DNA from: Ulota crispa
Lineage: Eukaryota; Streptophyta; Bryopsida; Orthotrichales; Orthotrichaceae
Reading direction: 5' to 3'
Assembly: GCA_963920765.1 (NCBI GenBank)
Contig: OY987246.1
Coordinates: 14,814,868-14,878,867, forward strand
DNA: 64,000 nt
Both the position numbers and the translations under genes were made by a program. How positions within the stretch are numbered: position 1 is the first letter of the stretch; each line of letters starts with the position of its first letter. Shown piece by piece: positions 2,310 through 47,135 of the stretch. The notes beneath the pieces were generated by a model. That model was not told the DNA's origin, ran no database searches, and worked only from the letters and a program-made list of their open reading frames with translations.

Positions 2310-3250
2310 CCCCTAATGGACCAAGCGCTTATTTTTTGTCAAAATCATTAAAAATTGTCACTTCTAGGGGATAAGTAAGAAGGTAGGTTTTTTTTTTTTT
2401 TAACTTTTTTGGGAAATTCAACCGTAGGATCTTGCCTTAAACTAGAATAGGTACTTGTGGGAAAAAAATAGGTCATTATAGATGGAGAGGAGGGAGATAA
2501 TTACATCTGAAGTGAAAAAAAAAGTTTTTTTGGTGTTGTTCAAAAAGTCTAGAAGCCTTTGACCACTCTTACATGAAAAAATTGCTCTACACAAAGTTGA
2601 GGTTTATTTTTTCCTCATAGAAGACCAAGTTAGGCATGTGTGGGAGAACTTTCAAATTAATTGGAGCTATACAACACATGGGAAAAAAATAGTAAGTAAG
2701 AAGAAGTAGAGAATGATCCAAATCACTAAATTGTTAAGAATTTAATTATTTAAATGAAAAATGCAAATAATCCCAACAGTTGTAATGTTGTAATAAACAA
2801 TCTACTTCCTTAGGTTTAATTTTTTTTCCAAAATATTGAAAACTGTGGAAAATAAAGGACTTCAAAGTTTATTTTAGAGTAGAGGATCTATAAATGTCCA
2901 CAAGTTAAAACATCTCATAACTTTCATCTCCTTGATTGAAATGGAATGATTCAAAGCTTTCCACATATTAAAAAAATCTAAAGAACCAAATTCAAATTTT
3001 TATTTCCAGAAAATACAAATTTTTAAGAAGTCTTTGGGCTGCCCGGATTGCCCTCCCTCCCTTGGGCAATAAAAATTCTTGCATAACTTCTTTGTTGGAT
3101 GTCAGAATGAGGAAAAAAATAGATGCCCACATAGATCTTTGAATTCCAAATCTTCCATAAAAGTCTCAAAGAATTACACAAAGTAGTTTGGCCATAAGTA
3201 CATGCCCAAAATCCCAATTGTCTTCCAAAGGGACAACAGTCCTTTAGGGG
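2310..3250 (+). mobile_element. TTAA-type non-autonomous element, family X, copy 1
   Basis: Element of about 941 bp. It begins CCCCTAATGGACCAAGC after TTTA (2306-2309) and ends GTCCTTTAGGGG before TTAA (3251-3254). The interior aligns in reverse complement with 46226-47135: the run GTAGAGAATGATCCAAATCA, the ACAGTTGTAATGTTGTAATA run, and the TCTCATAACTTTCATCTCCT run each have a clear partner there. The two copies give matching ends and lengths (941 and 910 bp). No open frame of note. The element directly abuts the next one at a shared TTAA. Confidence 0.7.
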
Positions 3251-3254
3251 TTAA

Positions 3255-3902
3255 CCCCTCACCGCCCAAGGGGACCAAAATTGTCCATCTTGCATTTTAA
3301 TTTGGAAATTTTTTATTTTTCTTGAAGATTAATTTTAGTGGTTATTTTTTTCAATTATTCTTATTGAAGTCTTGGTTTAGTATCAAATATTTGATTTTGA
3401 ACATGAATGACTATAATTTGTCTATCCAAGATTTTGTGCAAGGGGGGTCCATTGCAAATCTTCACTTTCTAGTGTTGAGAGCTCTTGGAAATGAGCCTCA
3501 AGTACACTAGAACTTGGAGAAACAATCACATTAGAAACTTAATTTAAAAAGTTGTAGAGTAGATATTTAAAAGCGGTAAATTGATTAGGGTTACACATGT
3601 TGTACTTTACATACTCATATTTTTTTTGATATTCTCAATTTTAAGTTTGAGATGTGAAAAGAGGATTGAAAGACTTCAAATCACTTTCACATTTTAACAC
3701 CCTCTTGATTAAATGTTATAATCTTTCAATCCATAAGAGATATTGCTGTGTTTTCTTTTCCTATATGATCTCTAACATACCTAGTTTGAATTTATACGGT
3801 TGCAATTTAAAAACAATTGATGCAACTTATCAAAATATTGATATTTTGTTTATCCAAGAACAGATTCTCAGAGACTCTGGATCGTCCGTGGGCGGTGAGG
3901 GG
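3255..3902. mobile_element. TTAA-flanked element with perfect 14-bp terminal inverted repeat
   Basis: Element of 648 bp bounded by TTAA at 3251-3254 and TTAA at 3903-3906. The left terminus is CCCCTCACCGCCCA. The right terminus is its exact reverse complement, giving a perfect 14-bp inverted repeat. The interior is AT-rich with no recognisable protein. The same termini, diverged, occur at 26179 and 27920. Exact TTAA duplication plus a CCC-starting inverted repeat is the known signature of piggyBac-type transposons. Family membership is inferred, since no transposase is present. Confidence 0.8.
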
Positions 3903-4156
3903 TTAAGATTGACAACTCATTGCGTTCGATGGTAAGGCTAACTTGCACACGATACCAGATCTCCCACATTTGTAACCTGTTTGATCATATGTGAAAGCTC
4001 CTGAGGTCCTTGCATCCAATATGATCAATCTCAATTGTGGGTTTCAAAATAATCCTGAAAGTTTTTACCTATCTAAAACAAAATCATCATAATGTCATAG
4101 TCAAATAAATTTTGTTTGTAAAAGTTTTTGAAAACAAATCATTTTTCAATATCTAT

Positions 4157-4177
4157 ATCATATATCATATATCATAT

Positions 4178-4230
<53 letters not shown>
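4157..4230. repeat. AT microsatellite
   Basis: Several CATATAT units lead into an uninterrupted (AT) run of about 25 repeats at 4181-4230. Confidence 0.95.
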
Positions 4231-4231
<1 letters not shown>

Positions 4232-4233
<2 letters not shown>

Positions 4234-6266
4234 AAATTACATATTAGAAAATGAATATAATTATGGCTTTTAAACCAAAAAACAAACATCACACCTTGTT
4301 AATCATATCCATGCTGTTGTATCAACTATTGTATTCACCAATATTTATTAACAAACCAAACTCTATGTAAAGTTTTTTTTGAATTTAAAAACGCAATTCT
4401 ATGATCTATAAGTTGGAAACTCGAAAGAGAAAGATGTTAATGATATTCAGTTATTTAAGTTTTTGCAAGTAATGCATCCTAAAAAATTAGAAGTTTGAGA
4501 TGGAACATGCAAGCACTTTCAAAACTATAGAATGCTTGAAGATTTTTTTAATAGAAAATTGTAGTATATTAATATGAAAGAATGATCACAAAGAAATACT
4601 ACGTATTTTGATGAACGCACATAACCATTTTCTTGTAACCGAGAGACATGTTCCAATAAATCTATTATCTATATCTGAATGCTGAAACAGTCACAAGCTT
4701 AAAATTTGATTAACTAATGTTTGATGCGTAACATTTGACATACAAAAAAATATCCATTTCGCTTTTAAATAAGTGTTCAATGAAACATGATTTGAATATT
4801 TTAGTTATGTAATCACCAAAATATAAAATAATGGTATGGTTCATCGAAATTCTCTCAAAATGAATCGAACTCTTTATTCTAAGTGCTCAAAAGAACCAAG
4901 ATTTCTACAATCAAGAGGTGATGAAATTATGTAAATTTTGAGGTTATTACCATTAAAATCAAAGAGTCATTAATTATAAATCCCATAGCTAATAAAAATT
5001 GACAATAGATTACAATAATTTGGATTATGGTATAGACGTTTCACAATATTGCATGTCTTTGTTGTTTGATTTAAGTGAAACATGAGTGTCAATTTGAATG
5101 TTAATAACTACCCAATTTAGTTGCTGACTCCATAGTTACTAATAGGGTTTGATACTAGTGTGATTATCAACAAGGTAATTATATGTTTTGCTATTGACTA
5201 GAGTTTGGATTAACCCACATGCTAATGACTTAAATGTCAAATCCTATACTATAAAGAAATCTATCAAAAATAGTAATCTCTTTTCTTTTTATCATATTTT
5301 GAGAACAGCTAAAGTAGTTGTGAACTCCCTTGAAGGTATTATGTACACTACAAGTTCCTCTTGTTGATAATTTTTGTATGAACGATTGTGCACTATTATA
5401 GAGTTGAGAATTTTTGGTATTACTTATTACATCCTTCTCATCCAACTCCATAAAATACCAAGTGTGATTGACCTAGATGAGGCATTCCAATTGATTAAGG
5501 TACCATTACCAAGTGAATTGCAAAATTCATATTATTAATTTAATAATAATAATATTAAATTAATACTAACTTTTGTTGATTATGTAATTTGAGTTAACCA
5601 ACATTTCATTGACCAATAAAGAAAACAAGGTCTTGTTTTTGTACATGAAATACAATAACAACAACACATATGTCAAATGTTCGAATAATCTAAGATTTTG
5701 ACTTATAAAGTAATATGCTTGGCTTTCATTTGTTTATATCGATTCTTTTGCAGCTTCAAAGTCCAAAGAGCATGAAAGGAGAAATGAGTTTCTGTCTATA
5801 ACAATTGGCAAACTAAAAGAAGCTTAAAAGAGTTGCTCTCGATGATTGTATGACCATGGACATTGTCAATAAATCTTCAATAATAAGTTGTAACACTAAT
5901 TTTATAAAAATTGTACATTTTAAGAAGGTCAAATACATGTTATAAAATTCTACAGAAAGAATTAGTAAAAAAATTGGATTTAAAAAAAAATCAAATAGAA
6001 ACAAAACTTGCAAACTGATTTTACAAGTATTTTTAAATATTTGAAAGCTATATGTTTGGAAGCTATTTCCTTTTATGCAGCCTTTCAATTGATTGCATTT
6101 TTTATTGATTTTTAGTTACTCAAAGTTTGATTCATGTTTGCATTGATATAATTTTGAATTTTTTCTAACAAAACAGCATACAATCAAATAAATCATCTGA
6201 TTCTTTTTTAATAAATTTTTAACTTTTTGAAGTTGGTATTTACTTGGCTTTTTTGATCATTTATCA
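4232..6266. other. AT-rich intergenic stretch, no gene seen
   Basis: No recognisable coding, RNA or clear transposon signal. Frames here are short and show no family resemblance. A small palindrome of AATATTATTAATTT type sits near 5530-5565. Confidence 0.6.
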
Positions 6267-6275
6267 TTGAAACAT

Positions 6276-6719
6276 GGGGAAATTATAAATAGGGGCACAA
6301 AAATGAAAAATATTACAAATAGGGGCGCAATTTTAAAATAATTTGTAATTTTTTGTAATTTTTTTGGTTTGAATATTGGCTAATTTAGATATATCACATC
6401 AAATGTTAGCTAACTTCCACAAAACTTAAAGGCCTCTCCAAATCAAGCCTAGATAAAGAAATTTTAGCAAAGGGGATGGTAATTTTTAGAAAGACCTCTA
6501 AATTTTTGAAAATTAGCTAACATTTGATGTGATATACCTAAATCAACCAATGTTCAAACCAAAAAAAGTTACAAAAAATTACAAATTATTTTAAAATTGC
6601 GCCCTTATTTGTAATTATTCTAAAAATGTGCCCCTATTTGTAATTTTTTTCATTTTTGTGCCCCTATAATTATAATTTGTAATATTTTTCATTTTTGTGC
6701 CCCTATTTGTAATTTCCCC
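6276..6719. mobile_element. MULE-like MITE with 9-bp target duplication
   Basis: A 444-bp near-palindrome. The left end starts GGGGAAATTATAAATAGGGG and the right end finishes with the matching CCCCTATTTGTAATTTCCCC. The arms extend far into the element, including the mirrored ACATTTGATGTGATATA blocks. It is flanked by exact 9-bp direct repeats TTGAAACAT at 6267-6275 and 6720-6728. Long terminal inverted repeats with a 9-bp duplication are typical of Mutator-like elements. It is non-coding and would depend on a transposase elsewhere. Confidence 0.88.
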
Positions 6720-7201
6720 TTGAAACATGGAGTACTCTCTGGTACTCACTCAACCAAATAAAATGCAGGCACCATGCCATGATTGATGAGACACCTAAGA
6801 ATCAAAGTTGAGATTTTAAAAGAATCTTCATAACTTTGACACAAAAAAAGGCTAATATGTTTCTAATCAAATTGATTTCTTGGCTGACACTACATTCATT
6901 TAGATTCTATACAAGACCGTTTATTAACAAAAATATTTTACTTATTTTTTGTGCAAAACATATTAATGTTAATCACAAATTGCATGTTACCAAAGTTAAA
7001 ATGGCAAAAAAAAAAAATTGTTATCTTGTGTTTCAAAGTCCTACAGCCAAAACATTCTATAAAATGAATATCCATTCATTACTAGAAAAATTTAAAAAAC
7101 TATCTTTGAAAACTTCATCCTATTAAGTTATTCCACCTTATATTTGATACTATCTTACATCACACTTTGTTGTTAAAATTAATATACAACAAACTTTGAT
7201 A

Positions 7202-7780
7202 TAGTGGTGCTTGGTTAGTGTCAACACTTTGGGCTAGTAAAAAGTGTTGATCTTATCCAAGCATTGATTATAAACAAACCCTCCATTTGAGTTACTTTCC
7301 CTAATTATGAGGGTTGCAACTTTGAAGGTGCTTTCTCACCCATGTTTTTGGTACACTAACCAAACGCTCTAACTAAGAAGTCAAAATGGGAATTGATGGA
7401 AAGAAAACATTGACCATATGCAAGCACTTGACCTTAACCCATGAGCGCCCAAGGGGCCAAAATATGGCCGCTTGGTTTTGAAAATTTTCCTTGTTTGACC
7501 GTTGTAATCTTTTCAATAGTACGGTGAAAGGACATGTCTTTTTCCTTGGAGCTTCGGGCCTATGTTCACTACCAATTGGTACGGTCAATTTTTGTGAATC
7601 TCTTTTAGGTGATAGTTTGATTGGAATGAGTTCCAAAGGGTTTGAATTTGAGTGAACTTGTGTTGGGCGTTAAGGGATTAACCAAGCTCATAATACATGC
7701 TTTTGAGCAAAAGGGGAGCGGGGCTGTAATCTTATCCAATTATTGCTCTTACAAAGGTTGACACTAACCAAGCACCACTA
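7202..7780. mobile_element. TA-flanked inverted-repeat element carrying a nested insertion
   Basis: The ends form an inverted repeat of about 24 bp: TAGTGGTGCTTGGTTAGTGT at the left and its reverse complement at the right (7757-7780), each flanked by TA. This fits a TA-targeting MITE, though the superfamily is uncertain. Positions 7434-7681 inside it are a separate TTAA-flanked insertion. Without that, the element would be about 335 bp. Confidence 0.7.
7438..7677. mobile_element. TTAA-flanked element nested in a TA MITE
   Basis: A 240-bp insert between TTAA (7434-7437) and TTAA (7678-7681). The left end is CCCATGAGCGCCCAAGG and the right end, in reverse complement, is TCCCTTAACGCCCAACA. The imperfect inverted repeat shares the GCGCCCAA/ACGCCCAA core seen at other TTAA elements in the window. 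A reading frame crosses it but resembles no family. Confidence 0.65.
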
Positions 7781-7951
7781 TACATATCACGCACGTTCTT
7801 CTATGCCTTCCAAATACACCTCCAAACTCAAATTTGTACAATGAAGAGTGTCCAAAACAACAAGTCAAAAAGGCAAAGTCTTCCCCTTGCACATTCACCC
7901 ATCAGGAGGCCATCCATCGGTGGAGCCAACCATCCAAGGTGGTGGTGGGGC

Positions 7952-8019
7952 CATCCATACATTGGGGTCATCCATACATTGGGGTCATCCATACATTGGG
8001 GCCATCCATCCATTGACCC
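7952..8019. repeat. 17-bp minisatellite (about four units)
   Basis: Three near-identical copies of CATCCATACATTGGGGT run from 7952 to 8002, followed by a degenerate fourth copy. CATCCA motifs continue to about 8060. The array makes artificial overlapping open frames on both strands, none of which looks like a gene. It lies just upstream of the GC-rich leader of the NT-C2 gene. Confidence 0.85.
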
Positions 8020-8149
8020 ATCCATGCAAGGGACCATTCATCCAACAATAGGACCATCCATTACAGAACCATATGTCATCCGGCACATGGCCATGGCTCC
8101 AACTCTGGAAAGTGAAGTATGACTAAGGGTTTTTACTGCACCATAGCCA

Positions 8150-10057: not shown

Positions 10058-10094
10058 GCGATCGGTAGTAGTTTTTCTCGTAGAGACAGTCGCG

Positions 10095-15240: not shown

Positions 15241-15771
15241 AAAACTCAAAAACTTGTTGGTATACTGTAGTATTGTCTTTCTCAGAGTTTCCTGGTGTAC
15301 TGGTATGTTTGTGTTCTTTGCTCAAACTCTTGGCGACGATTGCAGAGATGCCTCGTCGCAGCCTAGATGAGCTGCACTTGCAATGATTTTCAGAAGCTAT
15401 GGCGAATCGTGGCAAGAGCACTTTGCAGGCACATCATGTGGTGGACTGGTTGTCCTTAGCTGGTGCGTCAGACTTAATACTTAGGGTTTGCGAGAGCTCA
15501 TGTAGATCCTGAATCTTTGTATGGTCACCCTAACTCGAGGGAGTAGAAAAAAGCAAAGCATGATTGATGGCACGATTGCCGAATCGATCTGCTCAAGACC
15601 TTGCGGTTCGGTTTGAGAGAGCGCATTGCGGAACTCGACATGAATTTGACTGAAGAAAGCATAAGTTATCCTAGAAGAACATCGTCTTTGATCACATGCG
15701 ATTGTTTTTGGTTTAAACGAGCCGTGCAGATTGGCTACAGCGAGTAAGGGAGTCCGAAGAATCTAATATCT

Positions 15772-23823: not shown

Positions 23824-24819
23824 CTTAATCCCTCATTGGTGGCAAGCCTCACAGATCTCAAAATACACAAGAAATTGGGACAATTCTATATGCTCACAAG
23901 ATGAGGGGTTAAAAGGGTTAATGATGTTTGGAGAGATTCTGTGTGTGGAGAGTCAATGGCCAATTGGTCATGCTTCCTTCCATAAGGGACTTAAGGTAGC
24001 AACACCTATAACCATCACTATACCCATAACTATCACTTCTAAAATCTTGAAAAATTTGTGGAAGTGAGTAGATGTAATTACAAGGATATACAACATGTGA
24101 ACATGAAACCTTAATGTTGATATTAGGTGCAATTAGATTCTACTTTATAAAAATTCACAAATTATTCTCACAATATCCAAATAATACGTTCAAAAATGCA
24201 AACTCATCATTTTTCTCTTGCTAATAGGATCCTATAATTTACTAGACGTTTATTAATAATCATCATCTTCAAAACCCTTAATTTCACTATTATGGGTGCA
24301 TACTACCTTATGCATAATATTTGGAGAATTTTTTAGCTTTACCAATTTGGCATTTCTCAATCGCAACCGGTATTTCGTGAGCCTGCATCAAATCTAAATC
24401 TAGAAAAGTACTGGGTATCTTTTTGCAGCAAAGTCAAAGCTTTTCAGGTGCCACACATTTTTTTACGGGAACAATGTTTATCAGTGAAGCAAAGGCTTGC
24501 ATGTGAAGTGAGCTTTGTTTGTATGGGAAAAATGTTTGGTTTGTGAAGACAAAGGTTTTCATGTGCCTCATCAAAAAGAGTTGAAATCATACAACCTCTA
24601 TCAGAGCATGATTATTTTAGCTGAAATATAAACTTTCATGTGCCACATCAAAAGATTTGATTTGGTCTTCTCCATGCAAAGCAAATGATTTAAACCAATA
24701 GTATTCTCTACGATTGTAGTCTAATTTGACTATACTTCCTTTTAAAATCTAACCATTTTTTTGTAATTTCAAAACTTAATCAATTTTTTTGCATTTTAAT
24801 CAACTATCGGTTCTCCTTA

Positions 24820-25185
24820 CACATTGCGTTTACAAAAAATCTAATCCCTATTTTGTACCTACTGCAATTCAAAAGCTAAAGTATTGATCAAATATAATAA
24901 TGTGTACATCTAATATACTATTGCTTTGGATATACTCTATTGAAAGGTCATGATTTCATTGGTTACCCTTCAAAGAAATTAAATGAAAAATGACATGCCC
25001 AAATTGCCCCTAGTTAAAAAAACCATAAGACACCCATAGATTTTCAATAAAAATTGTATCTCCACATAGACCTTGAAAAATTTTATTTCTAAAATAAACT
25101 TCAAATTTTTTGATCAAATATCCCAATAGAACAAGCTTGCCCAAAATCTATTTTGTTCCTTGTAGGAACAATGGGCTTTTAGGGG
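24820..25185 (+). mobile_element. TTAA-type element, family A, partial or diverged copy
   Basis: The right end CTTTTAGGGG precedes TTAA (25186-25189). The last 360 bp align with positions 530-906: the shared run around CTAATATACTATTGCTTTGG, the ATTTCATTGGTT run, and the terminal CCCAAAATCTATTTTGT block. Upstream of about 24820 I cannot follow the homology, so this may be truncated. Confidence 0.55.
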
Positions 25186-26178
25186 TTAAAATGGCCCTTA
25201 AAAATGCATCATTGTTTTGTAATTATTGAATTTTGTTACTATTACAACCAAAAAGAAAGTTTGAGATGTTGAGTAAAAATGCATGAATTTAATAAGTTTT
25301 ATGTTTAATCCTTGAATATCATTTAAGGTCTTGGCAAGGTAGCTCCAAGAATCACATAAAGAATAAGAAGCAAATATAGAAGCTAGACATGGAGGCATTA
25401 CATCATAAAAATCAAACAAGCTTATATAGAGTAAATGTGAAACTTGGGCATGAATAAAAACACTCTTCAAGCATTTTACCCACACATTTCAAGCAAGCAT
25501 GAAATAATTTGATATTGCAAATAAGCGCAATAGATGAACCACATTTAGATATATTGGAAGACTAGTGCCTTAGCAATCACAACTAAGTGGCACTCTTGCA
25601 AAAACAAATATTTTGTGGAAACCGACAATCCCTTGGTTGTGCCTAATGTCTAAAGATGATGAGACAAAAGATCTATAATTAATAAAATCTAATTCTTCAA
25701 TAAGTGCCTAAAAGAAGTTTTCTATCTTGTGAGATATTAGAGAATGATTGAATTGAAAATTTAGGTGGATTTCCAAGTCTTATAAGTTAGAGTAAACAAC
25801 AACTAAATTATTTATTATATTCCTTTTTAAAATTTTAAAAAACAAAAGTGGACTTATCTAATGTTTTGAGACATTTTACCTGAAAGAATTAAGGACTAAA
25901 TACCCCCCATCTCTTTGATCCTTTAAGGACCAAGGGATGTTGTTGATCAATATGCAACTAGAACCGGCAATTAATGTATTGTTATCCACTTCAAATGCAA
26001 AAAAAAACCTCAAAGTTTAAAGTTGCAAGATATATTAGCCAAATTTTCATAAGAATGTAATCATTGTATAAATAAAGATATTATTAGGGGTGTACTTAGT
26101 GTGAAAAATCAATTGAAAATGGGGAAGGCAAAATGTTAGCTAATAAAATTTTAAAAACTCTCAAAACACTACTTTTAA

Positions 26179-27920
26179 CCCCTCAACACCTAAGGTGACC
26201 AATACTATCCACTTAAAATTGAAAAGCAGCTCTGTGCATGGCCATAAGGGTTTGAATTGCCTGATTGAATTTGGATTTAGGTTGTTGTAGGGGTTCGGTT
26301 CACTTCTGTGCGGTTGGATTGAGTACAAAGAGCCAAATGCGTGAAAAATCCTGCGCAAATTGTTGAGAGGTCAAACTTAGGACATGGCAATTTGTTCTTT
26401 TCTTTTGGAATGTGATTGGCAGTAGGCTGTTGGAGGCCGTTGGGCATTGGATTCGTCTTGGGGAGAGGGAGAAAGGTACTTTGTGGACAAGCTGCTCGCT
26501 CTACACCGCAATCTGAGTGGAGCTGTGTTGTGGCCACAGAGGGCATAGGACGACAGGCGCAAGGATGGCAAATTGTTCCAAAAATCCCCTCTCAGACCAG
26601 GTACGCATTCATCATAGGAAGGTAGTGGGGGCATTTGTTGTAGGCTAATTATGTTTGGGAGTTCTAGGGTTTTGCAAGTGCACTTTATGAGAGGTTTTTG
26701 CCGCCCCACCTTCTCTAATCACGATCACACAACAAAATTCCGGCGCACTTGTAGGATGTTGAGCACCTTGCGCAATGGGAAAGCGAGGACGCAGGAGGTA
26801 CAAGAAATCCAAACTCTTCTCCATGAATGGGCTTTCCGCTAGTTGCAGCGGACACTATACAATGGAGACGGGTGCAGTCAAAGCTCAGGCGCTTCAAAGA
26901 CCGCGCGTCGGGATTTTGTTGCGTTGACATTTTTGTTTTTGCTGAAGCCAAAGTGCAAGAGAGGATGAGAAGCGGGTAGTACGTACGTGTTGTTAGATTC
27001 TCAATTTTGGGTGTGCCGTGATTTGAAAGTAGGTGTGTTTTCCTTGTAGTCCCATGCAGGTAGTGTAGCTCATGTGGGATAATTTTGAGGACCGAGTAGT
27101 TTCAAGCAGACCATTGTGGCACAAGCAAAATTTTGTGAATGGAATGGGTTTCATGAAGTAAGGCGTGTTGCTTTTGATTTTGTTGCGCAGTCGTTCCTTT
27201 GTGCATAAACCGCTGCCACCTTTGCATTGTCACGGTGACTTAGCAAGCCGGTCATAGTAGCAGGTCATTGCCGGTTCCTTCCAAATGGACCTCTTCCCCT
27301 CCGCCAAATTACAAGGCAGGTATTGGTCGATGCAGAAGTTTGTTTGTTTTACAAATTTCACCAGTTCTTTGTCGTCCCAATGCAAAGAGACCCTCCAATT
27401 TTGGAATCAAACCAGCTATCACACTGACCTTTGCAAATTCCAAAGGAATGCAAAGTGCTTTTGAAGTCCAAAGATTCCTATCTGAACCTTGAGATGAGGG
27501 CCAAATTATAGAAAATCTAAAGTGTAGAAATCAAATAAAGAAAGTTAGTCGACATTGCCACAACCAATGTGCGGGGAGATTTTGAGCTCTTTTGACAAAA
27601 ATCCTACATTTTTCATTTTCAACCGGTTTTTTTGGTGCATACATTGGTTATTGCCAGTATACTTACACTAAAATTAGAAAAATTTCCAAAAACAAGTCGA
27701 TTTTTAGCCGTTTTCTGTAAATTTTAATTGATTTTTCCCCCATTTCATTCAACTGACTTTCTATTGTTTTTGGCTCTCCCTATACATTGGCCACAATTGC
27801 ATTCCCTAATTTGTGCGGTGAAAACCGCTAATTCCACTCTGATCAACTCTTACCATAAAATCTTTGACTAAATCCTGTAAAGTCTCCCTCCAAGCGAGTC
27901 CGACCATGGGCGGTGAGGGG
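26179..27920. mobile_element. Large TTAA-type element or paired ends enclosing a GC-rich island
   Basis: The left end, CCCCTCAACACCTAAGGTGACC after TTAA, resembles the left end of 3255-3902. The right end, CATGGGCGGTGAGGGG before TTCA, matches the right end of that element. If the two ends belong together, the element is about 1.74 kb. Its interior from about 26400 to 27330 is GC-balanced, CpG-containing sequence unlike its surroundings, possibly captured host sequence. No intact gene is readable in it. A repeat copy lies at 27567-27720. The pairing of the ends is inference. Confidence 0.45.
27567..27720 (-). repeat. Repeat with AACCGGTT motifs, copy 2
   Basis: GTGCGGGGAGATTTTGAGCT, then AAAAATCCT, TTTTCAACCGGTT and AGTATACTTACACT. 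The same series occurs in reverse complement at 57405-57560. Boundaries are approximate. Confidence 0.65.
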
Positions 27921-28126
27921 TTCATTCTAAAAATACAAATAAATGAGTTACAAAGTGTAATACAAAAGCATACAAAAAAAATACCCTTCAAATCAAGATT
28001 TTAGATAATGATCAATAAAATATATCTGTACAATTGAATCTCCCATAGCACAAAGCATATATATCCAATGATCTTGAAACAAATAAAGTGATTTTTTTCT
28101 AAAGTTGATTATGAGTTAAAGATTAA

Positions 28127-29025
28127 CCCTCTAAAGGACCAAAGTCCACGCAAGGGACAAAATACATTTTGGGCAAGCTTATATTATTGGGATTTTTGAC
28201 TAATTTCTAAAATGTTCTTTTTAAGATAGAGTTTTGCAAGGGCTGTATGGGAATACAATTTTCATTGAAGTTGGATTTACAATTCAAAGTTATGGGGGTT
28301 TCATGGGAATCTTAGTTGGAAGGGTAAGTTGGTTGTGCCATTTATTGACTTCTCCCAAGGATAACCAATGGAAGCATGACTCTTCACCAGAGTAGGTCCA
28401 AAGCAATAGTGAACTAGATAAATACATTACTATATTAGCTAAATTCACCAATACTTGAATTGCAATAGTGGTTAGAGATTTGGTTTTCTTTTCTTTCTTT
28501 TGTATATGTCAATTAAAGAAAAAGTCCAATCTATTATTTGGATTTTCATTTTTTTTAAACACTCTTTAAAGTTTTGGTTTGCAAAGAACCTCAATGAAGT
28601 ATAAATTCAAACACATGTTGAGACACATGTTTGCAATGCAAGCCCATACAAGGTGTGTTTTGATGCCTCCAATGGTCATGACAACTTGTGGGAATATGTC
28701 TAACTCAATTCAGAGTATGTTGTACAAATCTCCTTAGCACCCATAGTACAAAAATTATCCACAATATGTGGTTCAAGGGACTTGAAGATTCTAGGTGTCA
28801 AAAAACTTTTACACTAATTTCAAATGACCATATCTTTCAATCCAAACGGTCAAACCTCACAAAATCTTCACAAGAACCTTTGTCATATCTTTTTGCATAA
28901 ATCTAGTGCAAAACTCTATAGTGATATGTATACAAAATAGAATAAAATAATTCTTGGGATGTCATGACTAGAAATGACAATTTCAAGTGTTTTTTGAAAA
29001 AATAATGGGCTTGTTCCTTCAAGGG
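28127..29025 (-). mobile_element. TTAA-type non-autonomous element, family A, copy 2
   Basis: Reverse-oriented full copy of 34-906. It starts CCCTCTAAAGGACCAAAG after TTAA (28123-28126) and ends TTCCTTCAAGGG before TTAT. Matching internal blocks include CTTCTCCCAAGGATAACCAATG and ATTTCAAATGACCATATCTT. Length is 899 bp. No transposase is encoded. Confidence 0.62.
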
Positions 29026-29500
29026 TTATTGGTTTTCATACCATGTATTTTTTCTTCCATGCTTGTAGTAATAACTACTATACTTCTAAGTATGTTTATC
29101 AATAAAATTGATAATTTATTATTAATTATTTTTGGATTAATTTTCAAAAGATCATCTTATGAATTGGAAAAGTTGGCCTTCATAAACTTGTGATTTTTGA
29201 ATTTAAAAACAATTGCACAAAATCTTTTGGAAATCTATATTAAACAAGCCCATGGAGATACTATCACAAGAACATGGTAACATGTGGATGGGTGCATGAA
29301 ATTTGGTTACATTTATTGATTGTTCAAAATTTGTATACATTTTCTTCAAGGGGGTAAAGGTCTTTGTACAACATGCCCAAGAGTTAGTCAAGTTAGTTCT
29401 CTTGGTCATGTCTCTTGGTCAAGAGCAAGGATTAGAGCCAATATTGTTAGTCATTAGTTACCTCCAATAGTGTGAAGTGAACTTAGACAAGTCCCTTGGG

Positions 29501-31830: not shown

Positions 31831-31832
31831 TA

Positions 31833-32205: not shown

Positions 32206-32548
32206 TGACGCTATTAGTTGAGCTTCTAGTCACATGACCTAAATCAATATGGTTATTTTGAGAGGTCTGGAATCTTTCAATTTAATGAATATGGGGTTTA
32301 AACCTTAAGCTTCATATCACAAATATTGAATCTGTGTTCTCTTGAACACAATTACATTGTCATTTGAAAAAATGCATGTATCTTGAAAAATGCCACAAGG
32401 TAGCTATTTTGCATCTAAATGCTTAAAATCTATTACGTGGACTAATTTTTGTGGATGTCAAACATGTCCTTGACTAGATAGAAGATAGTAGGCAAAGAGT
32501 CTACTAAGTGCATTTGACATCATGTTCAACAACTTGTTATGCCTTTAA

Positions 32549-33456
32549 CCCTTTAACAACCACATCCGTTTTCACAAAATCCATTGAAAACAGGGGCTGT
32601 AAGCTTAGATTTGAAATTGACTCAAATATGGATCCATTTTCAATAATCCAACTGTACAAATGAAAAGTACACCTTGTTTATTGTAAAGCACCAAAATTTC
32701 AACTAGATCTACTATTGGAGGTGAAATATTATAATGATTGAGTGAGCTGTATGCGGAAAATCTCTTGTGTTTCATTCTTGTTTAGTTTTGAATGTTAACC
32801 TTTCATGCAAGCTTCGATTGAGAAGAGCCTTACATTTCTACAAAGTAGGATTTCCCACCTTTCCAACAAGACTAGTTTCACACAAAATAGACAAAAATAG
32901 CAATCACAAGGTGTAGCTAAGTGGACAAAGAGGGTCAAAAAACCCACTTTCTTTGCTACCCTAAAACAATTCTACAAGAAATTTGATAATTATTTTGGAA
33001 AATCCAATTGGTGAAAACAATAAAGAATTGGCCTTAAATGTAGGATGACAAATTTTAAAGCCAAAATGACAACAACATTTCAGCAGATCTTCAAATACTA
33101 CAATTATACTACTACCATATATGAAAACAATATAAGCGTATTTCTTAAGCAATTTGATTTTTTTTTAGAATTGTGCAATTGAAATTTGACATTCTTCTTG
33201 CATACTGGATGTAGTGTGTTGTTGCTTTGATCCATCTTTGACAAAAATTGGATACGTATTTTGAAGCCATGCTGTATAATCATCATTATTTATCAACTCA
33301 CATATCCAATTGCATTGTTATCTTTTTAGATGGATGCAAAATTCTTGTGATCCCATGCATACTTCAAGACCAAATTCCAAATTATTGAGCGATTTCAACC
33401 TACAAGCCAAAAACCACTCCCAACAACCAAAATATGGTCGCGTAGTCCTTAAAGGG
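32549..33456. mobile_element. TTAA-flanked element with CCCTTTAA ends
   Basis: Bounded by TTAA at 32545-32548 and TTAA at 33457-33460. Left end CCCTTTAACAACC. Right end in reverse complement CCCTTTAAGGACTACGCGACC. Length is 908 bp, like families A and X. The AAGGAC segment is shared with other TTAA ends in the window. No coding content was recognised. Confidence 0.6.
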
Positions 33457-33968
33457 TTAAAGATAAACATACATGCATTTATGAGTTGAGCCGAATGTAT
33501 TGAGCCGAATGTATTGGTCCTTGCGTCAAAAATAAACTTTGAATTCTAATGTCTAAATTTGTGCACATTTTTCATCATGAATTTCAATTCAATTGTGGAC
33601 AACTTGGAGAGGTCTTTTGTTTTTGTGTGGTTAAGATTCAAAGGACTATCCTAAGTTTGACGTTTATTGAGGGCAATTTTTTTTAGTACTTATGGTTCCT
33701 TAAACCAACAATTTTACTAGATTACAGGATTCAAATTGGTGCACACACTAGTACAGAAGCAATGAGCTTATATAAAGGAATCCCAATTTAAAAATTGGAA
33801 GATACTGGAACTAAGAGGGTGAAGACATGAAGCATGTGGCTGTTGAGAGAAAACTAATGCGATTTTGTGAAGAGAGGAAAAGGATTGGAAGAACTTAAAT
33901 AACGGTACAAAATATCATTCAGCCTGGAATTTGCTAAAAAATTAGCCAATTTCATGAAAGTCGGAGTA

Positions 33969-34110
33969 TAGTTATTTGTTCTTTGATTAGTCTAGTTATT
34001 TGTTCTTTGATTAGTCTAGTTATTTGTTCTTTGATTAGTCTAGTTATTTGTTCTTTGATTAGTCTAGTTATTTGTTCTTTGATTAGTCTAGTTATTTGTT
34101 CTTTGATTAG
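33969..34110. repeat. 24-bp tandem repeat, 5.9 units
   Basis: The unit TAGTTATTTGTTCTTTGATT plus AGTC is repeated without a mismatch from 33969. The sixth copy breaks off after ATTAG. The perfect identity implies recent expansion. Confidence 0.97.
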
Positions 34111-36320: not shown

Positions 36321-36522
36321 TTTTTTTGTGTATAAGGTAGGATGCTCATGAATGGAACATTGAAGGGTTGAAACTAAATTTTGGATAGGTGAAACTTCTT
36401 GAAGTATTCTTTGGTAAATTTTCCTTGAAAGATAAGAAGAATTGGCATTTGATCCAAGTTGTTTCATATTTTTTGGAACTTTAAAGAATTAATTATGAAA
36501 TTTTGAAGTGGAAAGGCCATAG

Positions 36523-36636
36523 GGCTCTAAAATGGAGCACCTCTTGAAATGTACATCACATCTACATTGTTGAAGGGTTATAAAAATCAACATGTACAAA
36601 CAAAGTACATTTGAGGAGGTGCTCCGTTTTAGAGCC
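36523..36636. mobile_element. Short MITE with TAG flanks and 32-bp inverted repeats
   Basis: A 114-bp element. The left end GGCTCTAAAATGGAGCACCT and the mirrored right end are flanked by TAG at 36520-36522 and TAG at 36637-36639. The arms match at 29 of 32 positions. A 3-bp target duplication fits the PIF/Harbinger or CACTA superfamilies. Confidence 0.75.
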
Positions 36637-36639
36637 TAG

Positions 36640-39300: not shown

Positions 39301-39339
39301 ATGGCAGATATTGTGGTGAAATCGGCTACAATTGAACAC

Positions 39340-39888
39340 AATGAAGAAGAGCATGAGAAACGACAGCAAGAGTGAAGGAGAGAGACGGAGACGGCGTCTG
39401 ACAGCAGGGCACGGAGACTGAGCACGTACAGATATCATGGCCCAGGAGGAGCCGCACTGCAGCAGCAGCAGCTGCCGCCACTGCAGTCTACCCCATCAAG
39501 TCTCGCAAATCTTCTCCTCCCTCCTTCAAATCTCTGCACACACGCACAAGTGCACAACTGCTAAAGTTCCAAGTTAACAACTGTAGTTTGCTCTGGTAAC
39601 TTTGTTATTTCAACCCCTCTCAGTCTGCTGCAACAGCCAAGTGAGCCAACAGCACCTGCACTGCTCTCTGTCCTTCCAAGCTGCATGAGCTGTCTTCCAA
39701 GACGTTTTCCGGTGCCATTGCAACGGTTAGCAGCTGCTGCAGCTCAGTAGATAACCTTTGCTGCCCCAGCGTCGCTTGTGCACGTATCTCGTGAGGAGCG
39801 TTTGGTGTGTCACGTTGTCTAGACAATGTCATTGTAGTTCGCTACGAGCAGGTTGTGTTTGTGCAAAAATCAGCTGGAGACGGCGACG
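39340..39888 (+). promoter_or_regulatory. Promoter/5' leader region of the GH17 glucanase gene
   Basis: GC content rises from about 39350 and stays high to the start codon. CAGCAGCAG and CTGCAGC motifs occur near 39460-39490 and 39720-39760. No protein is encoded in this strand's leader. The transcription start and any TATA element cannot be placed with confidence. Confidence 0.4.
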
Positions 39889-42866
39889 ATGGCGGCAATG
39901 CAAGGAGTCAGCCGCCGCTTCGCACTTGTACTCGTTCTCTTGGCCTGCTTCCGCCTCGCAGGTATAACTATTCTCCCTCCAATCTCTGTTCTCATCCTGG
40001 TTTTGAGAGCTCCTTTGCATATAGTACAAGTACTTGCACTGATCCTGGCGGTTTTTCTGTTGTTACGACTACTACACCAGCACTGCATGCGAGAATTGCA
40101 GTGTCGTAAGTTGAAATGGAGCTTGATGCTTAAAAATTCTGCTTTGTGCTTGTTAATTTTTACGTACAGCCCCGCTTGATGCGGTTTTGCGAGGACAAAG
40201 ACCTAACCTTGTATCTGCACGGATCAATCCATAGCCAATGGAGTAAAGGCTTACGTCTCAATTTCAAATTTTCATCTATTGGTGCTTATCAAACACGCGC
40301 TTTCGCGTACTTGGCAATGCTAAACCCTAGAGTTTGTCCAAATGCGCGTGAGTGCTAATCAGTAATCTCTTCCTGAAATGAGCCCTTTTGAAGTAATTGG
40401 TCCGTAAAACCTACGCTGGGTTAATTACGCCTGTGAGACATGGTGCCTTGCTGATACGAGTCAAGGAAAGCTCGAGTGCTGGCTGGCTATTTTTGAGTCT
40501 CGGTGTGTTGATCCTTGCATTGGAGGCTTTTGTATGGGGAAGATTAACGTACGTACTGTTTGAAAATCCTGCGTGGAACAGAGGGCGGCACTGTGGGGGT
40601 GAACTATGGAACGCTCGGCAATAATCTGCCCACTGCGACCCAAGCAGCGCAGCTGCTGCTCTCAACCTCGCTCCGCAACGTGAAGATCTACAACGCCGAC
40701 CCGTCCATCATGCAATCGTTCGCCAACACGAACATGAAGCTGGTGGTCGGCATCGGAACGGAATCCATCCCGCTGCTCGCCAGCAGCTCCGCGGCTGCGC
40801 AGTCGTGGGTCCAAACTAACATCGCCGCGTACATGCCTGCTACGCAAGTGACTCACCTCGCGGTGGGCAACGAGGTGCTCACCACGGCACCGCAAATGTC
40901 GTCGCAGCTCGTTCCTGCAATGTTGAATATTCACACCGCTCTTGTGAATCTGAAACTCGACGGGCAAGTGAAAGTCGGCACGCCGCACAACCTGCAGGTC
41001 AGTGACCACGATTCCTTACAAGTCCTCAACTTGTTTTTTTAAACGCCCCTTTCAGATTTCACGCCATGTCAGCCCACGTTATCGGCTTGTTTTTCTACAC
41101 TTTCAATTGGTTCACGTGATCACATTTTGCATTCCCTCTATCGGAGGCTGGACAGTGTTTTTGCAAAGTGGTTTTGTGGATTTCTTCAACATTGTTGTCC
41201 TTGGAATGTATCTACCTAGATGTAAGTACAAAACGATGCAAATACGTTCGAATCGATGCTGAGCAAGGAAGCATAAACTAACCTTCTCGAAAGCCGCTCT
41301 TCGTAACAACGCATCAGATATGTCGTGTTTTATGTACTGATTTTTCTGCATCACAGGTTTTGTAAGAGCCATGGTTTTGCATGTGTTAACCAACAACTGG
41401 GATGTCACGTGGGGGTTTTTGATCGTGCAGGTGCTAGGGAAATCCTTCCCTCCCTCGTCGGGCGCTTTCCGGGCGGACATCACCAACGAAATGAAGGCTT
41501 TACTAGCTTTTCTATTCTCCACGGGGAGCCCAATCATGGTGAACTTGTACCCATACTTCGCATACCGAGACGATCCGAAAAACGTGTCCATCAACTACGC
41601 GCTCTTCCAGCCGGATAAGGGCGTCACGGACGTCAACACGGGCTTGCACTACAACAGCATGATGGACGCGCAGCTGGACGCCGTCTACTCGGCTATGGAG
41701 CGAATGGGGTACCGCGACATCCCCATCCTCATCTCCGAGACGGGATGGCCCTCGGGTGGTGACACCAATGAGCTTGCAGTCAACCCTACGAACGCTCAGA
41801 TTTACAATCAGAACTTGCTCAAGTACGTGGCGGCGACCAAAGGCACGCCGCTGCGACCTGGAAAATCTGTCGACGCGTACATTTTTGCGCTTTTTAATGA
41901 GAACATGAAACCCGGCCCCGGAAGCGAGCGATTCTTCGGCTTGTTCCACCCGAATAAATCCGAGGTGTACAACCTCGGGATCGTCACCACGGCTGTTCCT
42001 GCTACTCCCCCGTTCACGGCGCCCGCAACGTACCCTCCTGCCACGCCCGTGTACCCCCCTCCTCTGCCTCCAGTAGCTTTCTATCCACCTCCAGTGGTTT
42101 CGTATCCTCCGGCAGTGGTGAACCCCCCTCCGGCGGTTGTGCTTCCGCCTCCGGCTCTTGTGATCCCGCCTCCCTCGGCTGTTCCGGCGCCCGTGCAGTC
42201 TGGCAACCCGGGCAAGACCTGGTGCGTAGCGAAGCCCGGCTCCCCGGATCACGACGTGACGGACGCCTTAAACTTCGCCTGCGGGGAAGGGGGTGCCGAC
42301 TGCGGTGCCATTCAGGCTGGCGGCGCTTGCTATAACCCCAATACCATGACCTCACATGCGTCGGTTGCGTACAACACTTACTATCAGAAGATGGGCCGGA
42401 ATTACTGGAACTGTTACTTCGGCGGAACTGGCGTCATCACCATCACGGATCCAAGTACGTCATTCTCCCCCATCTCTCTAAGCCTCCTCCCGTCACCATC
42501 AATGCGTTCATGCATGCGTGCAAATCTCGTCGCCATGCACGACTATTCAAACTCTAATCTTACGACCGAGTTCAGATCGATGCTATGCGAGTATTCTCTC
42601 AATCAGCAGTGTTTTCGTCAATTTAGCAAAGCTCTAGAAAACTGTCAATTTCGCCATGTTAACTAACTCATTATTCAATGTATGCTCAGTTTAAAGAAAG
42701 AACCACTTTGGCATCTTACTTCGACAATTTAGAACCTACCAGTTTCTTGAGTACCGTAGAGACTAGAGACGACTTGGTAGAGGTCAGATTGAGCGATTAC
42801 TTTCGTGAGTTTGACGATTGTTGGGTTACTGGATGTGCAGGTTACTCAGGATGCAGCTTTCATTGA
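39889..42866 (+). CDS. Secreted GH17 endo-beta-1,3-glucanase with C-terminal X8/CBM43 domain
   Basis: Exons 39889-39961, 40582-40997, 41431-42454 and 42841-42866; 512 aa. Residues 1-24 are a signal peptide split from the enzyme by the first intron. The GH17 TIM barrel (about 26-350) starts GGTVGVNYGTLGNNLP. VGNEV gives the acid/base Glu at about 122, and ISETGWPSGG gives the nucleophile Glu at about 266. Residues about 353-423 are a Pro-rich linker of YPPP and VNPPP type, as in cell-wall proteins. The X8 carbohydrate-binding domain follows (TWCVAKPG, then ACGEGGADC, ACYNPNT, NYWNCYFGG). Its sixth Cys comes from the last exon, which encodes only the final eight residues. The enzyme would hydrolyse callose-type beta-1,3-glucan in the wall. 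No hydrophobic tail follows X8, so a GPI anchor is not expected. The sense strand is GC-rich compared with flanking DNA. Confidence 0.95.
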
Positions 42867-45118
42867 AAATGTTTAGAATGGAGAGGAAATTTTTGAATGA
42901 GTTTGTTGAGACCGGAGCTGGTGGTAAAAGTTCGCAATTGGCGGCGAGTGAGGAAAAGTAATACAGCCCTGGAATCAGAGTTGGTAAGCGATTATAGCAG
43001 ATCTGGGAGGGAGTGATAACTTCGGGAGGGTAGTACCTATATGTGCCTAGATTACTCCAAGTTTCGTAGAGATGGAAAGTAGTTTTCGGTTAATGTTGGG
43101 AGTTTCAGGCGACACAAGTTGTGCCGCAGTTGCTGAACTAGATTGCCAAGAAGGATTTTGAAATGACTCTAGTTTTTTGACAACAAGAACGTAGGCTTTT
43201 GTTTACAAAAAATGTGTTCTTGATTTGGTAGCTGTTGCTGGTTTGTGAGCTTCATGGCTTAGTGACAACTTTCTTCCTGCTATATGTCGAGGACTCGAAG
43301 TGATAGTTGAGCACTGTCGCTTGATGATGTTTGTTCTTCTTTTGCTTGAACACGCCTTGTGTATGGTAATTATAACTCAATAGCAAGGGTGTAGTAGGTT
43401 TTTTTCTTGTACTGTGCATGAACAGTGAGGAGAACTTTTGGAGGCACGAAAGTGCATTGGCTAGTATCGAATCCCAGAAATTGGAATTTGGCGTTTAAAC
43501 GCCATAAAAAAGACACCCGGCGTACCAAAACAGCCAAAATCTAGCCCTAATAAACTCGCTTGAACAAGTGTAACCACTTAATAATGTGTACCAAAGAGCA
43601 AGCCCTCAAAAATTGATTTTAAGTCTTGAGACAAGTGAATGTGTGTTTTGTCAAAACCTTGGGGAGATCACTCCTTGGCCTATTTATCTAAAAGTCCATT
43701 TTTATATAAAAAGTTATGTGGGTCATATTTCTAGTATCCTCTATTTTTTTTTATAAATTTTATTCATTTGGTTTTTTAAATGGGGCTAAGGTACAAACAC
43801 TCATAATTGTGAGTGTACCTTGGGTTGTGACCTATGCTGTCAGTCATTTGAAATTAATAAAAAGAACTTAAGTGATGGTTATGGGTGACAAAGTGATGGT
43901 TGTAGGTGACTTGCATGACGGTTTAGAGAACCCCATCATGTTGTTTTTAGCATCTCCTACTCACGGCCATGGATTTTCAATGATTTTGGACTTTGAAAAA
44001 TCTTTGTGCACAAATGCTTGTAATTGGGACTTTAAAATTGATCCCTTTTTTTTTCATTCCTTCTTGCTAATCTAGCAATATTATTTTCAAGCTTGTATGA
44101 TCAGGGTATATATCCTATAATGCTTAAACTCACGCTTATGGGTGTTCCTACCTTATTTTATGCATAAATTTTGTTTGTCCAAATTTTTCCTATCTTCATT
44201 ATTCATCAAAAAAAATCTTACTTTCTATTACATATACATATATGGTATTCACCATGAAACCAATAACAAGCATATGAATTAAATGGCTATTATCCAAGTG
44301 AAATTTTTTCTTACCAAATTTTAAATGTTTCTAGATTCCATGCTATGTATATAAAATAGTTTAACATGGATAGCAACAAGCAACACCAAAACTTTTCACA
44401 ACCTCTATTCTTCAAGGCTAATTTATTAATAAAAAATCCTACTACCTAATGTTTTTACATATCCTAATTTATATATACTAAAATATATAATATTTCATGA
44501 ACTCTGTAGTAGCTCTACATATTATATAAATTTTTGAATCAAATGGACCCTATCTTTTAACTCACGTGGTTCCCAAAACATAGGCTACTGATCTCCCCAA
44601 GTTGTGGAATTTGTTGTTGAGTGAATGCTTATTGTTACTTGGGAGAAGGTACAAAACGTATTCCATTGCTTTGCATGTATAGTAGAGACATGTGTGTAGT
44701 CCCTTTAGCTATGAGGGACTACTTGTAAGGTAGGTGACCCTTTTACAACCATGTTCTCAATTCCAACCCCTATGTATTGAGAGAGGTCATTTCAATTCTG
44801 AAATGACAATCCTGGGTTCACAAATGTCAAAATTGAGAATATGGCCCAAAATGAGTCACTTACCTTAATTCATACACCATTACCAATTGAAACTACTCAT
44901 ATTTTGAATGTCAGAGAAAATTCCATCAAGATTGTTTTTAAGTACAAAAATTCATGAAAACTTTATGTTGGAAGAGGATTTAAATAATTGGCTATATTTA
45001 CACTTGCAAATAAAGTGCTTTTCATTTTTGAAGTGTCTCAAACCATTCTACAATTTGTGTCAGTAAATCAATTGCAAGTATATTATTCTACCCCATATTG
45101 CAAGTTCTTCAATCTTCT
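42867..45118. other. 3' flank of the glucanase gene, then repeat-like intergenic DNA
   Basis: About 500 bp of balanced composition after the stop probably holds the 3'UTR. A GGCGTTTAAACGCC palindrome sits near 43488-43502. TTGGGGAGATCA at 43659-43670 and its mirror TGATCTCCCCAA at 44589-44600 may be ends of an inverted-repeat element of about 0.95 kb; only short ends match. No gene was seen. Confidence 0.4.
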
Positions 45119-45360
45119 AGGTGCATTGCCAATGCAATTGGTAAACATGCCCAATATAACAAACTTGATTTTTTAATTAATAATTGATCATAATATAAAA
45201 TTATATGATTTGAATGACATGACTTTTTTATTATATATATATATAAAATTAAAAAATCATGCCTTTCAAATCATATAATTTTATATTATGATCAATTATT
45301 AATTAAAAAACCAAGTTTGTTACACTGGGCATGCTTACTGATTGCTTTGGCAAAGCCCTA
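45119..45360. repeat. Long near-perfect hairpin
   Basis: Two arms of roughly 100 bp meet at a short AT-rich loop near 45235. The ATAATTGATCATAATATAAA block is mirrored exactly, and outward CAAACTTG and CATGCCC blocks are also mirrored. It is probably a MITE whose outer ends have decayed. No target duplication was found. Confidence 0.75.
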
Positions 45361-45438
45361 AGACATGGAAAATAGGGCATGGACAAGAAAATCAAATACA
45401 AAATTTTACCAATTGATTATGACTTGTTATGACATTAA

Positions 45439-46221
45439 CCCTTAAGCACCCCACCTCCCCAAAACCAGCCTCTCAAAATGTTATTTTTGGGTCTCTTGCC
45501 AAAGATCCGTCATTTTCTTAGGTTTTCCCCATACCACATACTTTCTTTGCTAGAGGGTGTTTATGGGGGGTGGAGCGATATACTGCCTACTAGTCAGATT
45601 TAGTGTGGGAGGGTTTTGAAATTTCAGCTTTTCATTGAAAATCAACTTTCTAGATCTAGGCCCAGATTTGGTGACCGGTGCAACTGCCAATTAGTGGTTC
45701 CATACTGTTGAGCAAGGTTTTGCGTGCAATACAACTTGTCTTCTTGGCAGTGCCACAACTCAGCAGGTGGGGCTGTTGATGTGTCAGTTGACTCTAAGCC
45801 TCTTGTCAGATCTCCTTGCAGAGCCCAATTTTTGAACTCATACTTCGGGCCCTAAAATACCCTACTTCCATGGGTCAAAATCACCCAAAAATTGGTAGGC
45901 ACACCCTCATCCTTACCCCCCACTTACTATATGAATTTTGGGTATAGGCTTTGCCACATCCTCAAAGCACCGCCCCAAACTTCAAAAACAACCCAAATTC
46001 ATGCAAAATCTCAACAATCAACGCATCTTTGACCACTAAAAAAACAACCATCTAACCGATAACTTTCACGCAAAAAAGCAATAAATCTGCATCTAGTAGT
46101 TACAAACCACATTCAACGGCTAGCAATATTGGTTTTGAAAAACAAGTTAGCAAAGGATCATTTTTTGCGCAGGGGTCAAAAAAGTTGGTGTTCTAGAGAA
46201 CATGGCTTGGGCGCTCAGGGG
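45439..46221. mobile_element. TTAA-type element adjacent to family X copy 2
   Basis: Starts CCCTTAAGCACCCCACC after TTAA (45435-45438). Ends GGCTTGGGCGCTCAGGGG before TAAA (46222-46225). The ends form an imperfect inverted repeat with the GCGCCCAAG core seen at 3255 and 7438. Length is 783 bp. It directly abuts the next element, as 2310-3250 and 3255-3902 do. Confidence 0.6.
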
Positions 46222-46225
46222 TAAA

Positions 46226-47135
46226 CCCCTAAAGGACCAAGCCCCCTTTTTTAGCAACATAGCAATTTTAGGCAAGTACTTGTGATTGGAGATTTTCATA
46301 TTTTAGGCTAAAATTTTAATAGAATGTGGGAACAAAGTTTATCTTTTGTATGCATTAAATTTCATGACATTTTGAAGTACAAATAAGAAGATATGGCATA
46401 ATATGTTGTTTTTTTTCCTTTGACATGTAGCCCAAGTAGAATTTGGATTATTGCTTTTTTCAAAAAATAAAATTCAAAATTAGTTGAGGATATTTATATG
46501 AATGTGGAAAGCTTTGAATCATTATGTTTTGATCAATGAGATGAAAGTTATGAGGAGTTTTGTTTGCAGGTAGTTATGGATTCTCTACTCTAAAATAAAC
46601 TTTGAAGTCCCTTATTTTACTCACTATTCATTATTTTGGAGAAAAAACAAAACCAAAGGAGGTAGATTGTTTATTACAACATTACAACCATTGGGATTGG
46701 CACTTTTTGTTTCCTCAATTAAATTCTTAATAATTTGGTGTTTTGAATCATTCTCTACTTCTTCTTACTTACTATTTTTATCCCATATGTTGTACAATTC
46801 CAAATGATTTGAAACTTTTTTGACATGTATCCTACTTAGGTGGAAGGAATCTAGAGAAGCACCACCTACAACGCCTTTTTTCTTTAGGAATTTCACCTTC
46901 TGAAAGCTAGCTCCCCAGTTCTTGACAAGATGTTTTTGAATATTCAAACCATTCTATCTTCCAATCCATGTAGTGAGAAATTCTGAATTTTTTCCCAAAT
47001 CTTCTAAAATTATCCTACTACAAGATCCTATGGTTACATATGCATAGAAATGTTTATATTTCAATATTGGTTGATGCTCTAAAAATGACAATTTTGGAGA
47101 GTTTCTAGTGAAAACGCTACTTTGTCCTTTAGGAG
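46226..47135 (-). mobile_element. TTAA-type non-autonomous element, family X, copy 2
   Basis: Starts CCCCTAAAGGACCAAGCC after TAAA and ends TTTGTCCTTTAGGAG before TTAA (47136-47139). Reverse-complement homologue of 2310-3250 along most of its length, 910 bp. A short frame at 46765-46947 is not conserved in the other copy and is not a gene. Confidence 0.7.

Follow-up and report, generated by a model that had tools for sequence, protein, structure and literature searches.

A moss genome carries many TTAA-flanked non-autonomous elements that very probably belong to the piggyBac superfamily

The window analysed here is a stretch of 64,000 nucleotides (C5:14814868-14878867) from the 274.8-Mb genome (157 contigs) of the moss Ulota crispa. 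It contains about ten elements, or remains of elements, of 248-1750 bp that are bounded by TTAA and have CCC(C)T-type ends (Table 1), along with open reading frames (ORFs) whose domains point to plant-like genes. The ten intervals together amount to 8.4 kb, or 13% of the window. The word TTAACCCYT occurs 12 times on the two strands, compared with a mean of 1.9 and a maximum of 6 in 300 first-order Markov sequences, which bears out the proposal of an initial annotation that a TTAA-targeted, CCC(C)T-ended non-autonomous population lies here. We conclude that these elements are almost certainly non-autonomous piggyBac elements, that is, miniature inverted-repeat transposable elements (MITEs), because of their empty sites, the transposase loci elsewhere in the genome, the TTAA ends, and a palindrome at base 25.

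Most of the intervals listed in that annotation end at an intact or decayed TTAA; two of them, 34-906 and 24820-25185, have one clear end each, and the element at 26175-27924 had been missed. The TTAA at 3251-3254 is common to E1 and E2, and the elements at 45435-46225 and 46222-47139 stand back to back on a single decayed TTAA. The element at 28123-29029 is related to those at 30-910 and 24800-25189. At the right end of the 7434-7681 element, one extra T precedes the CCC (TCCC). The repeat that hosts this element is a different kind of transposon, a high-copy repeat with terminal inverted repeats (TIRs; TATAGTGGTGCTTGG...). Part of 26175-27924 (27569-27673) is an inverted repeat of 57456-57560, and other sequence may have been captured. 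Two TTAA-CCCTCAT-type ends face each other 88 bp apart at 23825-23912, possibly forming a very small element.

Table 1. Elements and host repeat in the window. Palindromes are given as complementary pairs out of seven at the centre named.
Feature	Position	Strand	Size	Left/right tetranucleotide	Remarks
Decayed element	30..910	.			right TTAA 907-910, left end decayed; palindrome 5/7 at centre 24, 2/7 at 25
E1, non-autonomous	2306..3254	-	949 bp	TTTA/TTAA	right-end palindrome weak, 4/7 at centre 25 and at 24
E2, non-autonomous	3251..3906	+	656 bp	TTAA/TTAA	TIR 14/14; left-end palindrome 5/7 at base 25
Host repeat	7200..7785	.	~340 bp without insertion		interrupted by 7434-7681; 925 first-look candidates
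TTAA element	7434..7681	+	248 bp	TTAA/TTAA	inside high-copy TIR repeat; left palindrome 5/7 at base 25
Truncated or decayed element	24800..25189	.			right TTAA 25186-25189, left not at TTAA; palindrome 7/7 at centre 24, 1/7 at 25
Element with E2-type ends	26175..27924	+	1.75 kb	TTAA/TTCA	interior GC-richer
Element	28123..29029	+	907 bp	TTAA/TTAT	left-end palindrome 4/7 at base 25
Element with CCCTTTAA-type ends	32545..33460	-	916 bp	TTAA/TTAA	TIR 11/14; right-end palindrome 5/7 at base 25
Element	45435..46225	.	791 bp	TTAA/TAAA	ends CCCTTAAGCACCC / CCCCTGAGCGCCC
E1-family element	46222..47139	+	918 bp	TAAA/TTAA	inverted relative to 2306-3254 (inverted repeats I4, I6, I14)

The genome-wide search for anchored ends that the annotation had suggested returned 24,605 exact matches to the 18-base end pattern TTAACCCYTNANNGNCCA in 275 Mb, compared with 6 for the reversed control. 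The window, which holds three exact matches against a genome average of about 5.7 per 64 kb, is not enriched. Two outward-facing ends on one TTAA were found at 257 genome sites and at none in the control. This points to later elements having repeatedly entered the TTAA of one already in place.

Empty sites were sought by joining the flanks of an element over one TTAA and searching the genome with the result. The joined flanks of the 7434-7681 element matched 40 near-full-length uninterrupted copies (89-92% alike) and one weaker copy (81%), with 40 scored of 925 first-look candidates. All eight copies that we fetched were uninterrupted, with the junction CTTGACC-TTAA-CCAAGC or a near variant; six of them hold TTAA, one TTAT, and one TTAG. 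Homology boundaries were examined for E1 and E2, and the candidate numbers given here (925, 7,223, and 10,285) are loose first-look counts, not copy numbers. The E2 query, which included 100-bp flanks, had 7,223 candidates, and the 39 non-self copies scored among them are 86-93% alike; 36 of the 39 start at query positions 96-101 and all 39 end at 751-762, the TTAAs lying at 101-104 and 753-756. Two of the remaining copies start at 89 and one at 1, the latter probably because an E1 end adjoins that copy too. Among the 10,285 candidates for E1, the 39 non-self copies scored are 85-88% alike; the start falls at 95-104 in 32 of these and the end at 1041-1055 in 37, with the TTAA at 1045-1048. These data show insertion of a window element and its relatives in TTAA, with duplication of that tetranucleotide. 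The two results named beforehand as contrary to the proposal, homology running past the TTAA and empty sites without a single TTAA, did not appear: most of the homology ends at TTAA, and a single TTAA is present in the best empty sites.

A profile search of the genome with PF13843 found at least 116 loci (120 matches; 116 scored of 528 candidates; best E value 1.3e-73). None of the matches listed lies inside the window, in agreement with the annotation's remark that no transposase is present there. Internal stops interrupt 110 of the 120 DDE rows, leaving 10 without a stop. One stop-free locus, L035, has a 476-amino acid open frame that matches the solved piggyBac (6x67, E 4.1e-20) and piggyBat (9c0f, E 5.8e-17) transposases; it reads GVN where the consensus of its relatives is GVD, a position that we take to be the third catalytic aspartate. 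In a collection of 5.8 billion proteins, 16 relatives were found at E ≤0.001, the best of them sharing 53% identity across 91% of the query. One relative, P0001, is 62% identical to locus L039 over its whole length (residues 1-591), and its predicted structure (mean pLDDT 69) has 6x67 as best fold match (E 8.3e-26, TM 0.56/0.69), with 9c0f at E 2.1e-24.

Twenty loci of about 8 kb (L021-L040) were used to characterize the transposase-bearing elements. A CxxC-CxxC-C-H segment lies downstream of the catalytic domain in 13 of them. A tree of the 20 moss segments and nine relatives resolved three supported groups, with bootstrap/SH-aLRT (Shimodaira-Hasegawa-like approximate likelihood ratio test) values of 99/98, 98/98, and 100/100; in the third, five moss loci are mixed with seven relatives. 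Every TTAA-TTAA pair around each transposase received a score, AATT, ATAT, and TATA pairs serving as controls, and the best end pairs were curated for nested MITEs. Nine elements of about 5.0-5.7 kb were accepted (L021, L024, L025, L026, L028, L033, L037, L038, and L040), five of which (L025, L028, L033, L037, and L040) were admitted on CC-starting ends in TTAA; the 3' end of L033, which begins TACT, is an exception to the CC start. The 3' end of L037 lies at TCAA 6347-6350, with 11 of 18 TIR bases by eye. Our results show that the genome contains transposase-bearing TTAA elements with the same kind of ends as the window elements, a DDD transposase, and a C-terminal cysteine-rich motif. The DDD transposase that the annotation had suggested looking for between such ends is present in the nine accepted elements. 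The PF13843 loci, the shared kind of ends, and the empty sites strongly support its broader claim, a piggyBac-type identity with a transposase encoded elsewhere in this genome.

Some candidate ends were rejected. In L039, the stretch 2155-2597 (transposase orientation) is a fold-back derivative of an E1-type MITE whose two ends are alike, and an E1-type MITE also sits at the 3' end of L037, where the end at 7315 was discarded. Because both loci had such MITEs as apparent ends, L039 was left out of the end statistics, and only the 5' end of L037 was retained. The end pairs of L022, L023, and L035 were too weak, and no end pair was accepted for L027, L029, L030, L031, L032, L034, or L036.

The joined-flank search covered the nine elements; the L037 join was out of register and was not used. 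Joined flanks matched the genome across the junction for three elements, namely L024 (at two places), L025, and L033. The 5.7-kb L024 gave two exact empty sites reading GGGAGC-TTAA-GGCTG. At 700-985 of L033, the transposase-bearing element stands beside diverged repeat units, which also occur uninterrupted adjoining it.

We next consider the 5' ends. Complementarity around base 25 after the TTAA reached 46 of 63 pairs over nine 5' ends, compared with a maximum of 32 in 2000 shuffles; the mean over centres was 0.257, with 28 for the next best centre. Eight of the nine elements have at least 5/7 at base 25, L026 having 2/7. This position played no part in choosing the ends, and L039 was excluded from the pooled value (53/70 with it). 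The palindromes mostly differ in sequence (GGACG/CGTCC, CGCCAT/ATGGCG, GACCA/TGGTC), those of L038 and L040 being alike. Among 36 mixed non-redundant ends, centre 25 was again the best, with eight ends at 5 or more compared with 2.1% elsewhere; three of the eight were already in the nine-element set. In the window, E2, 7434-7681, and 32545-33460 score 5/7 on one end each, and the right ends at 25189 and 910 reach 7/7 and 5/7 at centre 24, which was noticed post hoc. In Trichoplusia ni piggyBac, a dimer of the cysteine-rich domain (CRD) is reported to bind a left-end palindrome at bp 17-33, with the minor groove centred near bp 25 (Chen et al. 2020, PMC7351741). The position of the moss palindrome matches this dimer site.

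Sequence matches link some MITEs to transposase-bearing elements. The first 37 bp of E2 are 84% identical to L021 (E 1.8e-5), and 22 bp are common with L026 (E 0.009); the 7434-7681 element also has 22 bp in common with L026 (E 0.003). Reversed elements gave no matches, and three internal matches at E 0.004-0.009 mark the noise level. A strong match of the window end W2307_3 to L039_5 was set aside, as it joins MITE to MITE and not MITE to transposase element.

Judged by sequence, the elements very probably belong to the piggyBac superfamily: they combine TTAA duplication, CCY-starting TIRs (with exceptions at the L033 3' end and at 7681), a PF13843 transposase, a cysteine-rich motif, and a left-end palindrome. 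By analogy with the known piggyBac mechanism, a transposase dimer would bind the terminal repeat and, with its CRD dimer, the palindrome around base 25 in the 5' end, and excision would proceed through 4-nucleotide TTAA hairpins before insertion into a new TTAA. Several transposase lineages may have driven separate MITE families.

A number of observations weigh against this interpretation. Of the 20 transposase loci, only nine yielded acceptable ends, and only L021, L024, L026, and L038 exceeded all three control anchors on TIR score by itself. Control pairs scored up to 24, equal to the best accepted pair; L025 and L033 tied with controls, L028 and L040 scored lower, and L037 was scored with the wrong 3' end. 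The L025 empty site is diverged and reads CCAA, and the L033 junction matches are adjacent repeat units that fit loosely. No fixed palindrome was seen in eight 3' ends (at most 21/56). The MITE-wide palindrome test was weak, with 5 of 11 pairs, some of them doubtful, at 5 or more at base 25 compared with 0-4 elsewhere; the MITE-pair mean was higher at one other centre (4.09) than at base 25 (4.0), and three of the eight two-ended window elements score at most 3/7 at centre 25. Finally, the large E1 family, whose ends are AAAGGACC, has no specific transposase partner among the 20 loci, its apparent partners, L039 and the L037 3' end, being E1-type MITEs themselves.

The initial annotation also held that a single active transposase now mobilizes all of these derivatives. 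Many ends do follow one consensus, CCCYTNANNGNCCA, and ten DDE rows have no internal stop, but the 20 loci fall into three clades with distinct ends, the stop-free L035 carries GVN instead of GVD, and the best scored copies of E1 and E2 are only 88 and 93% alike. We consider this explanation very improbable, and that claim is not upheld. Stops in 110 of 120 DDE rows, together with MITE copies that are 85-93% alike, indicate that the activity seen is old. This holds for those MITE families of the window that were tested, and the majority of transposase copies are by now broken.

Kolobok duplicates TTAA and Sola3 prefers it, so that another TTAA-targeting superfamily could have produced the window elements, with piggyBac transposases as coincidental neighbours. 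The missing autonomous partner of E1 would suit such an origin, and a Kolobok paper uses TTAA 23 times (PMC6004289). Against it, the transposase-bearing elements themselves have TTAA-CC ends, one of them with exact empty sites; the E2 terminus matches L021 while reversed elements match nothing; and the base-25 palindrome fits the piggyBac CRD site. On the evidence of the piggyBac transposase loci, the ends, and the empty sites, we regard this origin as very unlikely. Chance occurrence of TTAA/CCCCT words in AT-rich DNA can be dismissed: the shorter word TTAACCY is indeed at chance level in the window (26 compared with 24.0), but the longer end pattern far exceeds its reversed control, homology boundaries fall at TTAA, and the empty sites already refute it.

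The piggyBac elements of the moss appear to carry more than a transposase. Upstream of the catalytic domain, beginning about 1.6-2.5 kb away, the elements have segments that resemble one another, and a profile built from seven of these found seven more loci (weakest E 7e-4), all on the transposase strand at 1050-1872, giving 14 of 20 in total. The pattern is roughly LNCL.E..L..LP...WRYLF.RQIAK.LGW. The profile had no match in L023, L024, L032, L034, L036, or L039, in the window, or in reversed loci. Six protein relatives of 78-192 amino acids were found. Nothing in Pfam rose above the cut-off (NDUF_B4 to P0017, E 0.0012, 19.1 bits compared with 21; BSP to P0018, E 0.26), and the predicted fold of P0018 (mean pLDDT 50) was too low in confidence for a fold search. 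This ORF may be a separate gene or a 5' exon.

Locus L036 (1891-5138; C1, ~1179090-1182340) contains a stop-free piggyBac-like gene in pieces, with catalytic residues apparently kept. One intron has canonical GT/AG borders (3941/4219), and a second is presumed from about 2490 to 3460; no TIR pair was found in the locus pair scoring. Its relatives comprise 57 proteins at 26-66% identity, and six of the eight examined start close to the same exon boundary. L036 thus looks like a member of a wider family, possibly a domesticated host gene or an intron-bearing transposon family.

PiggyBac has been described chiefly in animals, whose genomes are often engineered with it. The ends of the T. ni element start CCC, as do those of the moss elements. 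CCCT-type motifs appear in two papers (PMC12732532, PMC10813416). The T. ni element (6X67/6X68; PMC7351741) also shares with the moss elements the TTAA site, the DDD transposase, the C-terminal cysteine-rich domain, and the left-end palindrome. It differs in having a single 594-amino acid ORF, whereas the moss elements are about 5.0-5.7 kb long and mostly carry the additional upstream ORF; they also show no fixed palindrome in the eight 3' ends examined, live in a moss, and reach a very high copy number. PiggyBat, whose host is a bat, was compared by sequence and fold alone and resembles the moss transposases in both respects.

PiggyBac is barely documented in land plants within the searchable literature. 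One land-plant transposable element review does not mention it (PMC9033089); another plant review, following a general classification, lists PiggyBac among plant class II superfamilies (PMC10794571). For the fern Ceratopteris, one table line gives 1,230 PiggyBac fragments totalling 122 kb (PMC6890710); this too is a land plant, but the passage lists fragments and mentions neither ends nor a transposase nor empty sites. A beetle paper calls piggyBac occasional in plants, e.g. red algae, and an animal paper has it isolated from insects, fungi, and plants. Judged by titles, term counts, and abstract beginnings, none of the open-licence PMC papers listed describes piggyBac in a moss; one moss paper with a matching word has "piggybacking" only, and the word "repeat" is absent from the U. 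crispa genome note (PMC11803377). The annotation was therefore broadly right, though not absolutely so, in treating piggyBac as uncommon among land plants. As far as our searches reach, a dense piggyBac population in a moss and a conserved extra upstream ORF are new.

This moss, which has over 24,000 perfect ends, is a ready-made natural collection of transposases and their end sequences and offers a direct route to CRD/palindrome co-evolution. It suggests that the annotation of plant transposable elements may be missing an entire superfamily. We see about an even chance that a wider picture holds, in which mosses are a major unrecognized home of piggyBac, with several ancient lineages whose coding region has two parts, the transposase and a small upstream protein that is probably helical, and with TTAA MITEs that make up about a tenth or more of the genome. 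The CRD palindrome would diverge in sequence yet keep its place at base 25, so that transposase and end co-evolve, and L036 may be a host gene.

Two further repeats were seen in the window. A long inverted repeat at 60068-60779 has 240-nucleotide arms that are 91% complementary, with second arms nested inside, and a 24-bp tandem repeat of about six near-identical units lies at 33965-34108.

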